From Plebeiibacterium marinum (GTDB lineage: Bacteria > Bacteroidota > Bacteroidia > Bacteroidales > Marinilabiliaceae): a stretch of DNA of 64,000 nt. The notes below the pieces were generated by a model. The model was not told the DNA's origin, did not search any database, and worked only from the letters and a program-made list of their open reading frames with translations. A program made the translations under genes and the position numbers. This document shows, one piece after another, positions 23,629 to 36,376 of the stretch (positions are counted from its first letter, which is position 1; every line of letters starts with the position of its first letter). The stretch is from the NCBI RefSeq assembly GCF_026013615.1, contig NZ_JAPDPI010000004.1:1-64000 (forward strand), written 5' to 3'.

Positions 23629-24633
23629 TTATATTATTTCCTCTGGGTTATGTCCTGAAAAATACTTCATAAACTGCACTCTTTCAAAGCGCTCTGAATT
23701 TTCACCAGGCTCATGATGTACACTTCCCCGAAATTCATCAACGCTCAAATAACCCCTTCTTTCCATCCAGAACTCTATATTCTTCAAAATACCGGCAACA
23801 GAACCAATTCCATCCTTATATAACATAGATACAACCTGAACTGTAGTAGCTCCCGCCATAATCATTTTTATGGCTGTTTCGGCATTATGAATTCCAGTAC
23901 TGGCTGATAGATCACACCCTACCTTTCCCGACATTATAGAAACCCACCTTAAGGTATTGTAATAATCCATTTTGGAAGAATATGGATCTCCCGCTTTGAT
24001 TTCATCGGTCATAATATCAAAATCGACATTATAAAACCTGTTAAACATGGTTACCCCATCAACTCCTGCATCGTCAAGCTTTTTTATTACGGCAGCTAAA
24101 TTTGATGAATACGGAGCCAGTTTAACAGATACGGGAATTGCAATATGCTTTTTTACTTTTTCAACAATCGACAAGTATAATTTTTCATGCTCATCAGCCT
24201 GTTGTTCAATATCAAAAGGTAATTTGAACATATTCAGCTCCAGGGCATCCACTCCTGCTTTTTCAAGATGTTTTGCATAAGAAATCCATTCTCCTGAAGA
24301 TGCACAATTAAGGCTACCTATAATTGGGATATCAATCTCCTCTTTGGCTTTTGCAATTAAGTCAGCCATATTTTTTAAGGTATCGCTCTTTAGCTGATAA
24401 TCAAAATAATCCAAAAACTCCAGATTATTATCCTGATAACCAATTCTATTCTTCAGCGTTTCTTCGTGCTCCTTAATTATTTCTTCTTCAAAAATTGATT
24501 TAAGCACTACAGCAGCGGCACCACTCTGGGCAATCCTTTTTAAACCTTCAATGGTGGCAGTTAATCCACAACTACCTACAATAATTGGGTTCTTCAAGCG
24601 AAGCCCCATATATTTTGTATCCAATATCTTCAT
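23629..24633 (-). CDS. Dihydroorotate dehydrogenase-like flavoprotein
   Basis: The 334-residue TIM-barrel protein resembles class 1 dihydroorotate dehydrogenases: LDTKYMGLRLKNPIIVGSCGLT at the start, IGSLNCASSGEW, an ELNMFKLPFD segment, VSVKLAPYSSN and a C-terminal AGATTVQVVSMLYKDG phosphate-binding region. The active-site Cys/Ser loop of true PyrD is not obvious, and there is an unusual C-terminal extension (EFRGSVHHEPGENSE). Such proteins are often annotated only as DHODH-like. It lies 41 bp downstream of the Nfn-type genes on the same strand, so an electron-transfer role linked to them is plausible; substrate unknown. Confidence 0.8.
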   Translation of the reverse strand: MKILDTKYMGLRLKNPIIVGSCGLTATIEGLKRIAQSGAAAVVLKSIFEEEIIKEHEETLKNRIGYQDNNLEFLDYFDYQLKSDTLKNMADLIAKAKEEIDIPIIGSLNCASSGEWISYAKHLEKAGVDALELNMFKLPFDIEQQADEHEKLYLSIVEKVKKHIAIPVSVKLAPYSSNLAAVIKKLDDAGVDGVTMFNRFYNVDFDIMTDEIKAGDPYSSKMDYYNTLRWVSIMSGKVGCDLSASTGIHNAETAIKMIMAGATTVQVVSMLYKDGIGSVAGILKNIEFWMERRGYLSVDEFRGSVHHEPGENSERFERVQFMKYFSGHNPEEII

Positions 24634-24674
24634 ACTACAAATATATAATGATTGGCCTAATTCAACAATCTGAA

Positions 24675-26150
24675 CTATTTATTTTTCAAATATACATCCA
24701 TCGACTGAGCTGCTTTTCTTCCATCGCCCATTGCTAATATTACAGTGGCACCTCCCCTTACAATATCTCCGCCGGCATACATTTCAGGAATTGATGATTG
24801 TAAAGTATCTTCTTCAACCTTAATTGTCCCCCATGAAGTTACTTCTAATTCCGGCAAAGAGTCCGGAACAATCGGATTTGGGGATACCCCAACTGCAACA
24901 ACCACAGTATCTACATCGATAATTTCCTCTGCACCCTCAACAGGAACCGGTCTGCGCCTCCCGCTTGCATCAGGTTCTCCAAGTTCCATCTTCTGAATCT
25001 TCACCTTATTAACCTGCCCTTTTTCGTTGGCAAAATATTCAATCGGATTAGAGAGCGTCATAAACTCCACCCCTTCTTCCTTGGCATGTTCAATTTCTTC
25101 AACCCTTGCCGGCATCTCTTCCATGCTCCTGCGATAAACAATAATTGCCCTATCGGCACCTAGCCTTTTCGCCGTACGAACCGAATCCATCGCGGTATTT
25201 CCTCCGCCAACAACTACTACATTTTTACCACTTACAACAGGGGTATCTGTATTTTTATCAGCCGCATGCATCAGGTTGATACGCGTTAAATACTCATTAG
25301 AACTTAATATTCCAATATAATTTTCACCCGGAATATTCATGAATCGGGGCAATCCTGCACCACTACCTGCAAAAAAGGCTTTAAAACCTTCCTCTTTCAA
25401 ATCTTCAATGGGAGCAGTTTTTCCAACAATAAAGTTCGTTTCAAATTTCACTCCCATTTTCTTAAGCCCTTCTATCTCCACGTCCACAATTTCATTGGGC
25501 AAACGAAACTCAGGGATACCATATTTTAAAACGCCACCTATTTCATGCAAGGCTTCAAATACGGTAACATCATATCCTTTCTTTGCCATCTCTCCTGCAA
25601 AAGTCAAACCGGCAGGCCCGGAACCTATACAGGCTACTTTTATCCCATTTTTTTCCTGAATTTCCGGAACAGATATCTTTCCCGATTCTCTCTCATAATC
25701 AGCAGCAAAACGCTCCAGATAACCAATCGCAACAGGTTCTTTCTTCAATTTCTGTGTATAAAAACAATTGGCTTCACACTGCTTTTCCTGCGGACAAACG
25801 CGACCACAAACGGCAGGCAATGAACTTGTTTCCTTTAATACCTTTGCTGCTTCCAGAAATTCACCCTCTTCAATTCTTTTTATAAACTTTGGAATGTTTA
25901 TTTCAACAGGACAGCCTGTAATACAAGTTGGGTTTGGACAATCGATACAACGGCTTGCTTCTTTTTGCGCCTGTTCTGCTGACAATCCACTATTTACCTC
26001 AACATAAGATTGAATTCTCAATTGCGGATCTGCCTCAGGCATTTTAACTCTTTCCTGGAGTGTCCGTTCCTTATTATTTTTTGATTTTCTTAATTTCTCA
26101 CGCCACTCCTGCGCACGCTCTGACTTTAAGTAACTATCTCTGTTTTCCAT
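24675..26150 (-). CDS. nfnB: NADPH-binding large subunit, Nfn-type / GltD-like oxidoreductase
   Basis: The 491-residue protein has an N-terminal iron-sulfur region with CIDCPNPTCITGC and CGRVCPQEKQCEANC (two [4Fe-4S] clusters). An FAD-binding GSGPAGLTFAGEMAKKG motif and an NADPH-binding VVVGGGNTAMDSVRTAKRLG motif follow, with a closing MYAGGDIVRGGATVILAMGDG. This is the glutamate-synthase beta-subunit fold. It is paired with an FNR-like [2Fe-2S] subunit, not with a large glutamate synthase, which points to the NADH-dependent ferredoxin:NADP oxidoreductase NfnAB, an electron-bifurcating transhydrogenase. Many databases call it NADPH-dependent glutamate synthase. Confidence 0.85.
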   Translation of the reverse strand: MENRDSYLKSERAQEWREKLRKSKNNKERTLQERVKMPEADPQLRIQSYVEVNSGLSAEQAQKEASRCIDCPNPTCITGCPVEINIPKFIKRIEEGEFLEAAKVLKETSSLPAVCGRVCPQEKQCEANCFYTQKLKKEPVAIGYLERFAADYERESGKISVPEIQEKNGIKVACIGSGPAGLTFAGEMAKKGYDVTVFEALHEIGGVLKYGIPEFRLPNEIVDVEIEGLKKMGVKFETNFIVGKTAPIEDLKEEGFKAFFAGSGAGLPRFMNIPGENYIGILSSNEYLTRINLMHAADKNTDTPVVSGKNVVVVGGGNTAMDSVRTAKRLGADRAIIVYRRSMEEMPARVEEIEHAKEEGVEFMTLSNPIEYFANEKGQVNKVKIQKMELGEPDASGRRRPVPVEGAEEIIDVDTVVVAVGVSPNPIVPDSLPELEVTSWGTIKVEEDTLQSSIPEMYAGGDIVRGGATVILAMGDGRKAAQSMDVYLKNK

Positions 26151-26197
26151 CGTTGGAAATTAATTTCGTATATTATAATTTCGTATAACAGGTAAAT

Positions 26198-27037
26198 CTA
26201 TCTTCCTTTTTCTTCTGAAGACTTTAAGTAATCAGAGTCGGCTTTCTTTTCAAGGTCTTTATATCCATTTAACCTTAGAAGCATTTCATCAAAATCCACC
26301 TGATGTGCATCAAACTCAGGTCCGTCTACACACACAAACTTTGTCTTCCCTCCTACTGTAATCCTACACGCCCCACACATTCCGGTACCATCAACCATTA
26401 TGGTGTTTAAACTAGCCAAAGTAGGTATATTATATTTTTTGGTTGTAAGTGCTGCAAACTTCATCATAACAGCGGGACCAATAATCATTGCCTCATCAAT
26501 TTTTTCTCTGGCAATAGCTTCTTCCATACCTTCTGTTACAAGGCCCTTTTTACCATATGAGCCATCATCTGTCATCACAATTAACTCATCAGAAAACTGT
26601 TTAATCTGATCTTCAAGAATTATCAAGTCCTTACTACGGGCAGCGATTACAGTAATCACCCTGTTTCCAGCCTTTTTATATGCCTCCACAATAGGCAAAA
26701 GCGGAGCAACACCAACGCCCCCTCCACAAGCCAGGATCGTGCCTTTATTTTCGATATGAGTAGCCTGTCCTAAGGGGCCAACCAAATCTGTTATATATTC
26801 ACCAACCTCCAATGCGGCCAGCTTACGGGATGACACGCCCACCTTTTGAACCACCAATGTAATAGTACCTTTTTCCCTATCTGCACCAGCTATTGTCAAA
26901 GGGAAACGCTCTCCCTTCTCCCCTATTTTAACAATAACAAAATGTCCGGCCCTTCTTGCTTTAGCTATTCGTGGCGCTTCAATACTGAGCCTTACAACGT
27001 TCTCTGAAAAGAACTCTTTATCTACAATCTTAAACAT
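26198..27037 (-). CDS. nfnA: Sulfide/DHOD-like FAD/NAD-binding small subunit, Nfn-type
   Basis: The 279 residues form an FNR-like flavoprotein: FAD-binding RRAGHFVIVKIGEKGERFPLTIAG, NAD-binding CGGGVGVAPLLPIVEAYKKAG, and a C-terminal [2Fe-2S] site MVDGTGMCGACRITVGG with FVCVDGPEFD supplying the further ligands. This is the PyrK-like small subunit of NfnAB. It lies 47 bp upstream of the large subunit on the same strand. Together they would couple NADH and reduced ferredoxin to NADP+ reduction, which fits a ferredoxin-using metabolism (see iorAB). Confidence 0.85.
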   Translation of the reverse strand: MFKIVDKEFFSENVVRLSIEAPRIAKARRAGHFVIVKIGEKGERFPLTIAGADREKGTITLVVQKVGVSSRKLAALEVGEYITDLVGPLGQATHIENKGTILACGGGVGVAPLLPIVEAYKKAGNRVITVIAARSKDLIILEDQIKQFSDELIVMTDDGSYGKKGLVTEGMEEAIAREKIDEAMIIGPAVMMKFAALTTKKYNIPTLASLNTIMVDGTGMCGACRITVGGKTKFVCVDGPEFDAHQVDFDEMLLRLNGYKDLEKKADSDYLKSSEEKGR

Positions 27038-33706: not shown

Positions 33707-33736
33707 CAAAAATAGACACAATTTATTAGCTACAAA
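33707..33736 (-). promoter_or_regulatory. Promoter of flavin reductase gene
   Basis: On the minus strand: TTTG (complement of 33733-33736), 18 bp, TATTTTTG (complement of 33707-33714). It is an exact consensus and overlaps the 3' end of pyrI, so the flavin reductase gene is probably transcribed independently of pyrBI. Confidence 0.75.
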
Positions 33737-34188
33737 ATTTCAAGGTGATCCTTGGTGGTAATCTTTTCACAATAATGACATTTTAACGCAATATCTCCTG
33801 AAACCAATAAAGAAAACCGGGTTGTAATATGCTCGTTATTAGTAATACACTTTGGATTAAAGCACTTTGCAATCCCTACAATTTCTTCAGGAATTGACAC
33901 CTCTCGTTTTTCCACCACATCATAATCCCTTATAATATTAAACCGAGCCTCAGGAGCAACCAAAGCTATCTTATCCAGATCCTTTTCTTCAAAAAACTTA
34001 TCAGCAACCTTAACAATGGCTTTTTTTCCAAAACGATTACTGCCCAGGTTTGTACCAAAAGTAATCAGGTTTTCGCACTTATCTAAATTCAGTATACTAA
34101 TCACCTTAAAAAGTCTTTCTGCTGGAATATGATCGATTACAGTACCATTTTGAATGGCACTAACTCTTAATTCTTTTTTCTTACCCAT
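33730..34188 (-). CDS. pyrI: Aspartate carbamoyltransferase regulatory chain
   Basis: The 152 residues show the PyrI allosteric domain (IQNGTVIDHIPAERLFKVISIL, nucleotide-binding) and a zinc domain with four cysteines: CFNPKC and CHYCEK. PyrI binds CTP/ATP and tethers catalytic PyrB trimers through the zinc domain. Having pyrI indicates an E. coli-type allosteric ATCase. It starts 12 bp after pyrB and is certainly co-transcribed. Confidence 0.97.
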   Translation of the reverse strand: MGKKKELRVSAIQNGTVIDHIPAERLFKVISILNLDKCENLITFGTNLGSNRFGKKAIVKVADKFFEEKDLDKIALVAPEARFNIIRDYDVVEKREVSIPEEIVGIAKCFNPKCITNNEHITTRFSLLVSGDIALKCHYCEKITTKDHLEIL

Positions 34189-34200
34189 TGTTCTTTTTTT

Positions 34201-35109
34201 TTAAGCCAAACCTAATATTGATGCAATAATTGCCATTCTTGCATACACTCCATTTTCTGCCTGCTGAAAATAATACGCTTTAGGATTTTCATCCACATCG
34301 GTACTAATTTCATTAACCCTTGGAAGCGGATGAAGTATCCTTAAGTTATCTTTAGTATTTTTAAGCATCGAATTCCTTAACACATAAACATTTTTCACCT
34401 TTTCATACTCCAGTGGATCTGCAAAACGTTCCTGTTGCACACGGGTCATATATAAAATATCTGCTCGTGATATAATATCAGTAAACTCCGAATGTTCGTA
34501 AAAAGGAATACCTTTTGAATCCAGCCACAATTTATACTCATCCGGCATTTTAAGTTCATCTGGCGAAATAAAATTAAAAACCGGATTAAAATGACTCATT
34601 GCCTGAAGCAGGGAATGAACTGTACGTCCATACTTTAAGTCGCCTACCATAAAAACATTAAGGTTTTCAAGGGTACCTTGCGTTTTCTTAATTGAATACA
34701 AATCCAGCAAGGTTTGTGTTGGATGCTGATTGGCTCCATCTCCTGCATTTATAATGGGTACTGATGACTGCTCTGAAGCATACCTGGCACTACCTTCGAG
34801 GGGATGGCGCATAACAATCATATCGGCATAATTGCTGACCATTTTAATGGTATCTTTCAGCGTTTCCCCTTTTGTGGTTGAAGAAGAAGAAGCATCTGAG
34901 AAACCAATAATCCGTCCACCTAAACGGCGAATTGCAGTTTCAAAACTTAAACGGGTACGCGTAGAGGGCTCAAAAAACAGGCTTGCAATAACTTTGTCTT
35001 TCAGCAAATCCTGATTTGGTTTTGCTTCAAACATTGCAGCTCGATCAACAATCTGAAGAATTTCTTCTTTTGTAAAGTCATTAATGGATACTAAACTTCT
35101 GTTTTTCAT
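34201..35109 (-). CDS. pyrB: Aspartate carbamoyltransferase catalytic chain
   Basis: This 302-residue transferase has the carbamoyl-phosphate motif [13 protein letters not shown], the [10 protein letters not shown] loop, [10 protein letters not shown] and the aspartate-binding RVQQERF and [10 protein letters not shown] segments. It catalyses the committed step of pyrimidine synthesis. It is preceded by a 300-nt leader that carries a leader ORF and an intrinsic terminator (listed separately), and followed by pyrI. Confidence 0.98.
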
Positions 35110-35112
35110 TTA

Positions 35113-35355
35113 TTATGGATTAGTTCCATGGTATTTTAAACCATAAAATAAAATACCCGGAATTTGATTTATTATTTGAAAAATTGATTTTTGAACCAAT
35201 GGAAGGTGCCTTACCCAAAGACCTTGCCCAACACCCTGTAACAACCTGGGATCCGGGCAAAAAAAAGACCTATTAAAATAGGCCAACAACAGTGAAAAGG
35301 GAATTAAAAAAAAGAAAAAATAAGATTCCTCATCATTATATCTAAATGATGACAT
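35113..35355 (-). CDS. pyrL-like leader ORF upstream of pyrB
   Basis: An ORF runs through the entire pyrB leader and stops 3 nt before the pyrB ATG. Two ATGs are possible: 35400 (95 residues, nearly leaderless if the -7 box at 35410-35417 is real) and 35355 (80 residues, used here). The peptide has a Phe-rich block YFFFFLIPF encoded by U-rich codons and, 10-15 residues later, NRSFFC encoded across the terminator stem and T-run. E. coli PyrL has the same order: a PFFFPLI block followed by NRGAFFC. A ribosome translating closely behind RNA polymerase would cover the terminator. The downstream half may serve translational coupling to pyrB. Confidence 0.6.
   Translation of the reverse strand: MSSFRYNDEESYFFFFLIPFSLLLAYFNRSFFCPDPRLLQGVGQGLWVRHLPLVQKSIFQIINQIPGILFYGLKYHGTNP
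35130..35157 (-). other. Hairpin just upstream of the pyrB start
   Basis: A 9-bp stem, GGTATTTTA (35130-35138) with TAAAATACC (35149-35157), lies 20 nt upstream of the pyrB ATG, inside the leader ORF. It could mask initiation at pyrB unless leader translation opens it. No T-run follows, so it is not a terminator. Confidence 0.45.
35259..35284 (-). terminator. Candidate UTP-sensed attenuator of pyrBI
   Basis: On the minus strand the hairpin CCTATT-TT-AATAGG (complement of 35269-35282) is followed after two bases by eight T (complement of 35259-35266). The only promoter that could feed it is the pyrB one, because the neighbouring gene is divergent; it therefore lies inside the pyrB transcript. 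A U6-C-U8 tract (complement of 35306-35320) ends 23 nt before the hairpin, the arrangement expected of a UTP-sensitive pause site. Confidence 0.7.
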
Positions 35356-35409
35356 ATTACAACAATAGTCGTTTTTGGATATTCTTAAACATTTACTCAT
35401 TCCAAAGTT

Positions 35410-35417
35410 CAAATGTA
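35410..35417 (-). promoter_or_regulatory. Probable -7 box of the pyrB leader transcript
   Basis: On the minus strand this reads TACATTTG, an exact TAnnTTTG match. No -33 TTG is visible at the usual distance. It would place the transcription start near 35402 and the pyrB leader at about 290 nt. Confidence 0.4.
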
Positions 35418-35432
35418 ATACAAAAATCACAA

Positions 35433-35461
35433 TTGCTTAAAATTTTAAAAGAATATCTTTG
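35433..35461 (+). promoter_or_regulatory. Promoter of the EamA transporter gene
   Basis: TTG (35433-35435), 18 bp, TATCTTTG (35454-35461). The -7 box contains the in-frame TTG that would give a longer ORF, so the true start is the ATG at 35483, 21 bp downstream. It is back-to-back with the pyrB promoter. Confidence 0.8.
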
Positions 35462-35482
35462 CAGAAAAAACAAACAAGAGAC

Positions 35483-36376
35483 ATGCAACGATCATACACA
35501 TCCAGTTTAATACTAATGCACTTTATTGTTTTTATTTATGGCTTTACTGCCATTATTGGAAAACTAATAGAGATGAATGCCCTACAAATGGTATGGTACA
35601 GAATGCTATTTGCAGCTTTAGGTCTACTGGTATATTTAAAATGGAAAAAGATCAATATATCTATACCCAAAGCAGATACAATTAAACTAATTGGGATAGG
35701 ACTGGTAGTTGCTTTGCACTGGATCACCTTTTTTGGCGCCATCAAAATCTCAAACATCTCTGTTACCCTGGGCATAATGGCTTCAGGAACTTTATTTGCA
35801 AGTATTTTGGAACCATTGTTTTTTCGACTTCGCGTTAACTGGATTGAGTTTTTGATAGGCACTTTTATTGTATTTGGCCTATATCTTATTTTTAGTTATG
35901 AGCTTTCATATATCAATGGAATTTTAGTTGCTTTAATCGCAAGTCTACTGGCCACCCTTTTTACTATTTTAAATAAATCTTTTACAAATAAATTTTCACC
36001 TTCAATAATCAGTTTCTACGAAATGACAGGTGGATTTATAGGCATCACACTTTACCTGATCGTTTCACAACAATTAAACAGGGAATTACTTTCCCCATCC
36101 TATATGGATTTATTTTATGTTATAATTCTGGGGATAGTTTGCACTGCTTTTGCCTTTGCCGTGAGCGTGGATGTAATGAAGGAACTATCTGCTTATACCG
36201 TAATATTATCTGTAAACATGGAACCCATCTATGGAATACTCCTTGCCTACTTCATTTTTGGAGAATCAGAACATATGAGTGGGGGATTTTATTTGGGAAC
36301 CATAGTCATCCTGCTCTCCGTTTTCATTTACCCCATAATAAAAGCAAAAACCCGGAACAAAAAGAAAAAGGCCTGA
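35483..36376 (+). CDS. EamA/DMT-family transporter
   Basis: The 297-residue membrane protein has 10 predicted TM helices in two EamA repeats. The first repeat begins MHFIVFIYGFTAIIGKL and the second ISFYEMTGGFIGI, with a conserved SVNMEPIYGILLAYFIFGE near TM9 and a polylysine tail. DMT exporters move amino acids, nucleosides or metabolites; the substrate cannot be read here. It is divergent from pyrBI. Confidence 0.9.
   Translation: MQRSYTSSLILMHFIVFIYGFTAIIGKLIEMNALQMVWYRMLFAALGLLVYLKWKKINISIPKADTIKLIGIGLVVALHWITFFGAIKISNISVTLGIMASGTLFASILEPLFFRLRVNWIEFLIGTFIVFGLYLIFSYELSYINGILVALIASLLATLFTILNKSFTNKFSPSIISFYEMTGGFIGITLYLIVSQQLNRELLSPSYMDLFYVIILGIVCTAFAFAVSVDVMKELSAYTVILSVNMEPIYGILLAYFIFGESEHMSGGFYLGTIVILLSVFIYPIIKAKTRNKKKKA

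Follow-up and report, generated by a model that had tools for sequence, protein, structure and literature searches.

The pyrBI operon of the window, i.e. the whole stretch of 64,000 nucleotides analysed here, is preceded by a leader that carries every testable sequence feature of the pyrL scheme of Escherichia coli and is pyrL-like by anatomy. This leader probably attenuates transcription of pyrBI in response to UTP and through a coupled ribosome, as pyrL does in E. coli, a reading already put forward in a preliminary description of this DNA and supported here by a kept reading frame, a terminator within that frame, U enrichment at the nucleotide level and a hairpin at the E. coli spacing, with neither a PyrR above cut-off in the genomes searched nor an Rfam match at gathering scores. 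Control of the pyrL kind is already known; what seems to be new is its layout in Bacteroidota, together with a short start region predicted to be able to fold over the leader start codon.

Anatomy of the pyrBI leader

The ATCase operon comprises pyrB (35109-34201) and pyrI (34188-33730) on the minus strand, and the leader sits immediately upstream of it. Read 5' to 3', the TACATTTG box, the leader ATG, a hairpin, the tract T6-C-T8, the terminator hairpin with its T8 and the stop codon follow one another before pyrB. The sequence elements named in the preliminary description are present on the minus strand, and the adjoining gene (ORF at 35459) is divergent, as it had said. The features are:

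35410..35417, minus strand: TACATTTG, Bacteroidota -7 box (consensus TAnnTTTG), assigned by sequence, with an inferred, unmapped transcription start
35401..35406, minus strand: TTTGGA, 5' arm of a 5'-terminal stem, directly before the leader ATG, with a perfect complement TCCAAA downstream
35374..35379, minus strand: TCCAAA, 3' arm of the 5'-terminal stem, complement of TTTGGA
35113..35400, minus strand: leader ORF, 95 codons plus stop, running through the terminator, frame kept in relatives
35330..35352, minus strand: pause-type hairpin TCATCATTTAGATATAATGATGA, 3' end 9 nt before the T6 run, assigned by a spacing rule
35306..35320, minus strand: U tract T6-C-T8, proposed UTP-sensitive pause region, from sequence and T enrichment in relatives
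35259..35284, minus strand: intrinsic terminator (hairpin 35284-35267, T8 35266-35259), from sequence, fold and scan
35126..35160, minus strand: hairpin shortly before pyrB, inside the leader ORF, from the fold of the stretch 35100-35175
34201..35109, minus strand: pyrB, aspartate carbamoyltransferase catalytic subunit (TIGR00670, 381.9 bits)
33730..34188, minus strand: pyrI, regulatory subunit (TIGR00240, 167.6 bits)

Elsewhere in the window, positions 23629-27037 hold a dihydroorotate-dehydrogenase-like gene, of which 23722-24624 matches TIGR01037 at 108 bits, under the cut-off. The genes adjoining it are presumably GltD-like and reductase-like.

Loci sampled and distribution of the layout

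Within the family, 71 genomes were searched and 64 loci were taken of 66 pyrB-like matches, the partial G063 and G066 being left out. For the order, 119 genomes were searched and upstream regions were drawn from the best 30 matches, while the named genomes were represented by the best 80 of 585 relatives. The resulting 173 loci gave 156 distinct upstream regions after removal of L153, whose upstream sequence is short, and of 16 duplicates; 155 of these are truly usable, the match of L127 starting at base 6 and having no true upstream region. Among the genomes searched, the nearest named relatives of the window genome are Saccharicrinis aurantiacus (L094) and Labilibacter marinus (L095); the upstream region of L094 is identical to that of L003, which shares its genus, and that of L095 is identical to L005. 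Leaders were scanned for by a TAnnTTTG box with an ATG no more than 22 nt further on and a downstream terminator, openness of the ORF not being required. This promoter pattern missed five loci of the window genus in which the box ends in TTTA, and the terminator scan missed the long-loop terminators of Marinifilum relatives.

The whole layout occurs in 48 of the 64 family loci and in 23 of the 92 loci outside the family, and is absent by scan in 16 and 69 loci, respectively. It was found in all eight loci of the window genus (five of them hand-placed) and in 14/14 loci of genus g7. Named loci that carry it include Marinifilum, Labilibaculum, Ancylomarina, Prolixibacter, Gaoshiqia, Maribellus, a Butyricimonas and a Barnesiella; the layout was not seen in the loci of Bacteroides (L159, L164, L165, L166 and L171) and Parabacteroides (L169). 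According to a class-level search, non-Bacteroidales mostly carry a different PyrB, mostly with about 35-41% identity. Genus g20 (L044-L063) shows the layout in one of 13 loci, with the other 12 lacking it by scan, and pyrL-like control has perhaps been lost or replaced there.

In eight genomes, no leader ORF reaching a terminator was found ahead of pyrE (8 loci), carA (8), pyrC (8) or pyrD (6 loci, from 6 of the genomes). At pyrC, the locus of the own genome (L229) has no open frame at the expected start and does not count as a proper negative. Two carA loci (L212 and L218) harbor a hairpin, ATGCATTTA..TAAATGCAT, followed by a T run 74-83 nt before carA, which is possibly a separate carA attenuator or the terminator of an upstream gene.

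Reading frame of the leader and its link to pyrB

As described previously, the leader ORF starting with the ATG at 35400 stops at 35113, 3 nt ahead of the pyrB ATG at 35109. The preliminary description had proposed to look for stop codons and lost elements in homologous leaders. In this comparison, 69 of the 156 upstream regions qualified under the scan. Sixty of them keep the leader frame free of stops up to 12 nt before the terminator hairpin, as opposed to one locus for the +1 frame and eight for the +2 frame. Among the nine exceptions, at least L003 represents a misplaced promoter, while L064, with a box and a 9-nt gap, has a genuine early stop. With the 60 leaders from the scan and 11 hand-placed ones, 71 leaders were assembled, of which 52 have an ORF that crosses the terminator hairpin, 12 one that ends inside it and seven one that ends at most 15 nt before it; all 71 were picked for an ORF that comes within 15 nt of this hairpin, and the open frames of the hand-placed ones add no independent support. 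No use was made in the selection of the region from the terminator to pyrB, and there the leader frame stays open in 25 of 34 cases, compared with three and four for the other frames; related loci are included in these counts. In seven close relatives of another genus, pN/pS is 0.49 for the leader frame versus 1.07 and 0.88 for the other two frames and 0.045 for pyrB. Judged from these sequence comparisons, the leader appears to be translated, with its peptide under weak constraint.

The suggestion of translational coupling to pyrB gains support from the relatives, since 39 of the 52 crossing ORFs end no more than 15 nt from the pyrB ATG, most often in an ATGA overlap with pyrB (14 loci). This is no departure from the enterobacterial leader, as had been claimed: in E. 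coli, too, the pyrL ORF stops 3 nt short of pyrB. Likewise, the resemblance that the preliminary description had seen between the leader peptide and that of E. coli pyrL is weak (BLASTP E 0.006 in one comparison) and, by eye, not kept in relatives; most of it comes from residues encoded by the U tract and the T8GCCC tail. The stretch 35100-35175, which holds the hairpin shortly before pyrB, folds at -13 kcal/mol (z -1.56, window sequence alone). Genus g7 has an apparently different hairpin at a similar place before pyrB, by eye of the GTGGGAGC..CTCAC type.

U tract, pause-type hairpin and terminator

The U tract is separated from the terminator hairpin by 21 nt by our count, rather than the 23 nt given before. 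In the 52 of 61 representatives that are of sufficient length, T content amounts to 0.434 in the 60 nt before the hairpin, versus 0.260 in the earlier part of the ORF and 0.276 in pyrB (Wilcoxon p of about 1e-8 or less). The excess extends to every codon position. At fourfold-degenerate third positions, T accounts for 41% of bases before the hairpin, compared with 21% in the earlier ORF and 25% in pyrB; among pyrimidine-ending codons there is a shift to T (0.764 vs 0.638). A T run of at least five lies within the last 60 nt in 36 of 61 representatives, and T runs start in all codon phases (19, 21 and 31). T excess at all positions and runs in every phase suggest that what is selected is U in the RNA, not Phe. 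An argument at the level of Phe codons was dropped, because the TTT:TTC ratio over the whole pre-hairpin leader (147:61) equals that of pyrB (199:82), with a rise in the last 20 codons (135:47 vs 44:25 earlier). A fairly high T content precedes the terminators of his leaders in the family as well (T60 0.349), so part of the enrichment in the pyrB leaders may be general.

A hairpin about 10 nt before a U run marks hairpin-stabilised pausing. Such a pause-type hairpin, which had been overlooked before, lies upstream of the U tract in the window. A T run of five or more beginning no closer than 50 nt to the ATG is present in 31 of 61 representatives. Ten of these have a hairpin ending 8-12 nt before the first such run; the element is not universal, yet shuffled sequences yield a mean of 0.53 spaced hairpins and at most three in 200 trials. 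The observed hairpin-to-T-run distances peak at 10, and under the same spacing rule the E. coli pyrL hairpin ends 10 nt before a T5 run and that of the window 9 nt before its T6 run.

The terminator hairpin, GGCCTATTTTAATAGGTC, has seven pairs, one of them G.U, and beats chance, with an equally good fold in 3 of 200 shuffles (z -2.65). On both strands of 34500-36000, four terminator-like sites were found versus 1.1 expected.

Start region and 5'-terminal stem

The leader ATG (35400) lies 9 nt past the -7 box, and no GGAGG precedes it. If the box corresponds to -12 to -5, the position reported for Flavobacterium psychrophilum in a passage of PMC9723704, transcription would start at about 35405 and leave a 5' UTR of about 5 nt. 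This predicted length would be unusual, because according to part of PMC7366714 only about 3.7% of 5' UTRs in Bacteroides thetaiotaomicron are shorter than 10 nt.

The preliminary description had also missed a 5'-terminal stem at the start of the leader. In the window its fold energy alone is unremarkable (z -0.07). Among relatives, a perfect complement of the six bases before the leader ATG occurs within 75 nt in 19 of 61 representatives, while partner swaps between loci gave a mean of 3.85 and a maximum of 13 in 3000, and arms shifted by 3 or 6 nt gave four and five matches, i.e. chance level. Since tests at single loci are mostly weak (p < 0.05 in 8 of 60; Fisher p 0.0007, with related sequences), the claim for this stem rests on the swap control. 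Overall, a perfect 6-nt stem is present in 24 of 71 loci, with arm distances of 5 to 50 nt and nine arm sequences (TTTGGA, TCCGGA, TTTAGA, TTCGGA, TTCGGT, TTTGAT, CCCGAT, TCTGAT and TCTAGA), two of which are self-complementary; that the nine differ fits RNA pairing. Stems of 5-6 nt are found in 33 of 71 leaders, 27 of which would also allow pairing of the U and G of AUG (under a loose rule with a background of 48%).

For 14 leaders, of which 13 belong to genus g7 and one to g10, the consensus fold comprises the 5' stem, which also takes in the U and G of AUG, and the terminator, but nothing else, and in particular no antiterminator. In these aligned leaders, the 5' stem pairs the whole inferred 5' UTR and the start-codon U and G with a segment about 50 nt downstream; 98.2% of cells pair, and the one compensatory pair is equalled by 32 of 500 shuffles. 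For the eight leaders of the window genus, the consensus fold holds the 5' stem and a mid-leader hairpin but not the terminator, the two types of which do not align. Covariation within the window genus is not above that of shuffles, although sliding the 5'-stem partner breaks pairs. L014, L016 and L022 exemplify g7 leaders in which the 5' stem and the mid-leader hairpin overlap, the former with its 3' arm and the latter with its 5' arm, so that the two structures would be mutually exclusive there.

Proposed mechanism and alternative explanations

In E. coli, as described in a part of PMC10135430, the polymerase transcribes pyrL fast and terminates when UTP is abundant, whereas under limiting UTP it pauses in pyrL and a coupled ribosome prevents the terminator. 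Transferred to the window, where translation, pausing, UTP as the signal, regulation and reinitiation are all inferred from the sequence, a ribosome would load on the almost leaderless ORF directly behind RNA polymerase. With plentiful UTP, the polymerase would outrun the ribosome through the U tract, the terminator would fold and transcription would end before pyrB. With UTP in short supply, the polymerase would wait at the pause formed by hairpin and U tract, and the ribosome, having caught up, would cover the terminator sequence and allow transcription of pyrBI; finishing at the pyrB start, it could then reinitiate. More tentatively, and with odds somewhat against it, the 5'-terminal stem could act as a timing gate, in that ribosomes may enter only before the partner segment is made and only a close follower would read the leader; in g7, initiation could also free the partner for the pause-type hairpin and make the polymerase wait. 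If true, the stem would represent a kinetic coupling device, which to our knowledge is not known from pyrL.

A leader ORF that runs over a terminator might instead sense translation generally or charged tRNAs such as Phe-tRNA, not UTP. In its favour, Phe makes up 10.7% of pre-hairpin leader codons (50 representatives), and with such an arrangement anything that slows the ribosome would lead to more termination. However, T is enriched at all three codon positions and at fourfold-degenerate sites and its runs begin in every phase, and codon starvation would turn pyrBI off, a response of little use where Phe is concerned; sensing of this sort is unlikely. A classical amino-acid leader-peptide attenuator was rejected in view of the ORF crossing the terminator, the missing antiterminator in the consensus fold of 14 relatives and the different build of the family's his leaders; the window leader has a Phe run, and Phe is not an amino acid of the pathway. 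Around the leader ATG, the inverted repeat, which sits at the inferred transcription start, might also serve as a DNA operator for a repressor instead of an RNA stem, but this is made rather improbable by the variety of its perfect arms and of their distances, which favours RNA pairing.

That the terminator merely lowers transcription constitutively, with the ORF being a small protein gene ahead of pyrB, would accord with the purifying selection on the peptide. Yet this selection is weak beside that on pyrB (0.49 vs 0.045), the peptides of different genera are unlike by eye, the terminator lies inside the ORF and the divergent neighbour leaves no upstream gene to insulate, all of which makes such an arrangement very unlikely. 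Least probable of all, and close to being dismissed, is the binding of a protein or metabolite to the leader RNA, be it PyrR or an unknown riboswitch, with an incidental ORF. The long leader with recurring stems would suit it, as would weak matches to the PyrR model in 13 of 21 genomes at E 0.001, but the best match of the own genome scores 27 bits versus a cut-off of 138, PyrR exceeds the cut-off in none of the 21 genomes, the own one included, the 14-leader fold lacks an antiterminator and the leader frame is kept. Over the whole window, Rfam gave no match at gathering scores, and three implausible ones at E up to 5; none marked a PyrR-binding element, and PyrR attenuation and known RNA families were discarded. 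A relative of the Bacteroid-trp motif, which is listed in an excerpt of PMC2864571, was rejected as well, with matches in 4 of 71 genomes at E 0.001, one of them over the cut-off, and none in the own genome. Attenuation by a UTP-sensing, ribosome-coupled mechanism remains the preferred explanation.

Comparison with known systems

No description of a pyrB attenuator in Bacteroidota was found in the open literature, subscription papers being mostly outside the search. The main text of PMC2965389 has no word starting with Bacteroid or pyrB, and a portion of PMC9723704 offers clues for leader-peptide attenuation of amino-acid operons in a Flavobacterium.

PyrR-mediated pyr attenuators, as in Bacillus, also attenuate pyr genes, whereas here no PyrR exceeds the cut-off in the 21 genomes and no Rfam match marks a PyrR site. 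Closer to hand are the his leaders of the same family: His-rich leader peptides followed by a terminator occur in 18 of 30 hisG loci (L245-L274), including the own genome (L266: MTNLVHHHGHHYNLP), and, going by their sequences, the hisG leaders of the family are classical his attenuators. They share with the pyrB leader a leader peptide and a downstream terminator, but differ in a box-to-ATG gap of 18-22 nt, in peptides of 13-18 residues with His runs, in ORFs that end 24-173 nt before the terminator hairpin (18/18) and in the lack of a 5' stem (0/18). The his operons thus keep the classical his-type layout, and since their leaders are built differently, the arrangement at pyrB is not a general leader style of these bacteria. 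At trpE, a scan of 30 loci found no leader with at least two Trp codons.

Like E. coli pyrL, the window leader precedes pyrBI, has an ORF that runs through the terminator and stops 3 nt before the pyrB ATG, a T8 after the terminator stem, and a hairpin ending shortly before the U run (10 nt in pyrL, 9 nt in the window). Unlike pyrL, it has a Bacteroidota promoter box with the ATG 9 nt past it, an inferred 5' UTR of about 5 nt and a 5'-terminal stem over the start region; the GGAGG ahead of the pyrL ATG is missing in the window, and the ORF has 95 codons versus 44 in pyrL. On the question of common descent with enterobacterial pyrL, PyrB of the window is 57% identical to E. coli PyrB, and the leader peptides, alike only over a short stretch, match at E 0.006 in a single comparison. 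Taken together, a distant phylum would have the same solution for pyrimidine sensing, with a start-codon stem and a nearly leaderless start in addition. Control of the pyrL type requires the ribosome to stay close to RNA polymerase, and Bacteroidota mRNAs are generally without Shine-Dalgarno sequences, as stated in passing in PMC9723704. The conserved pyrL-like layout in Bacteroidales would hence predict such coupling in this phylum and provide a natural reporter to test it.
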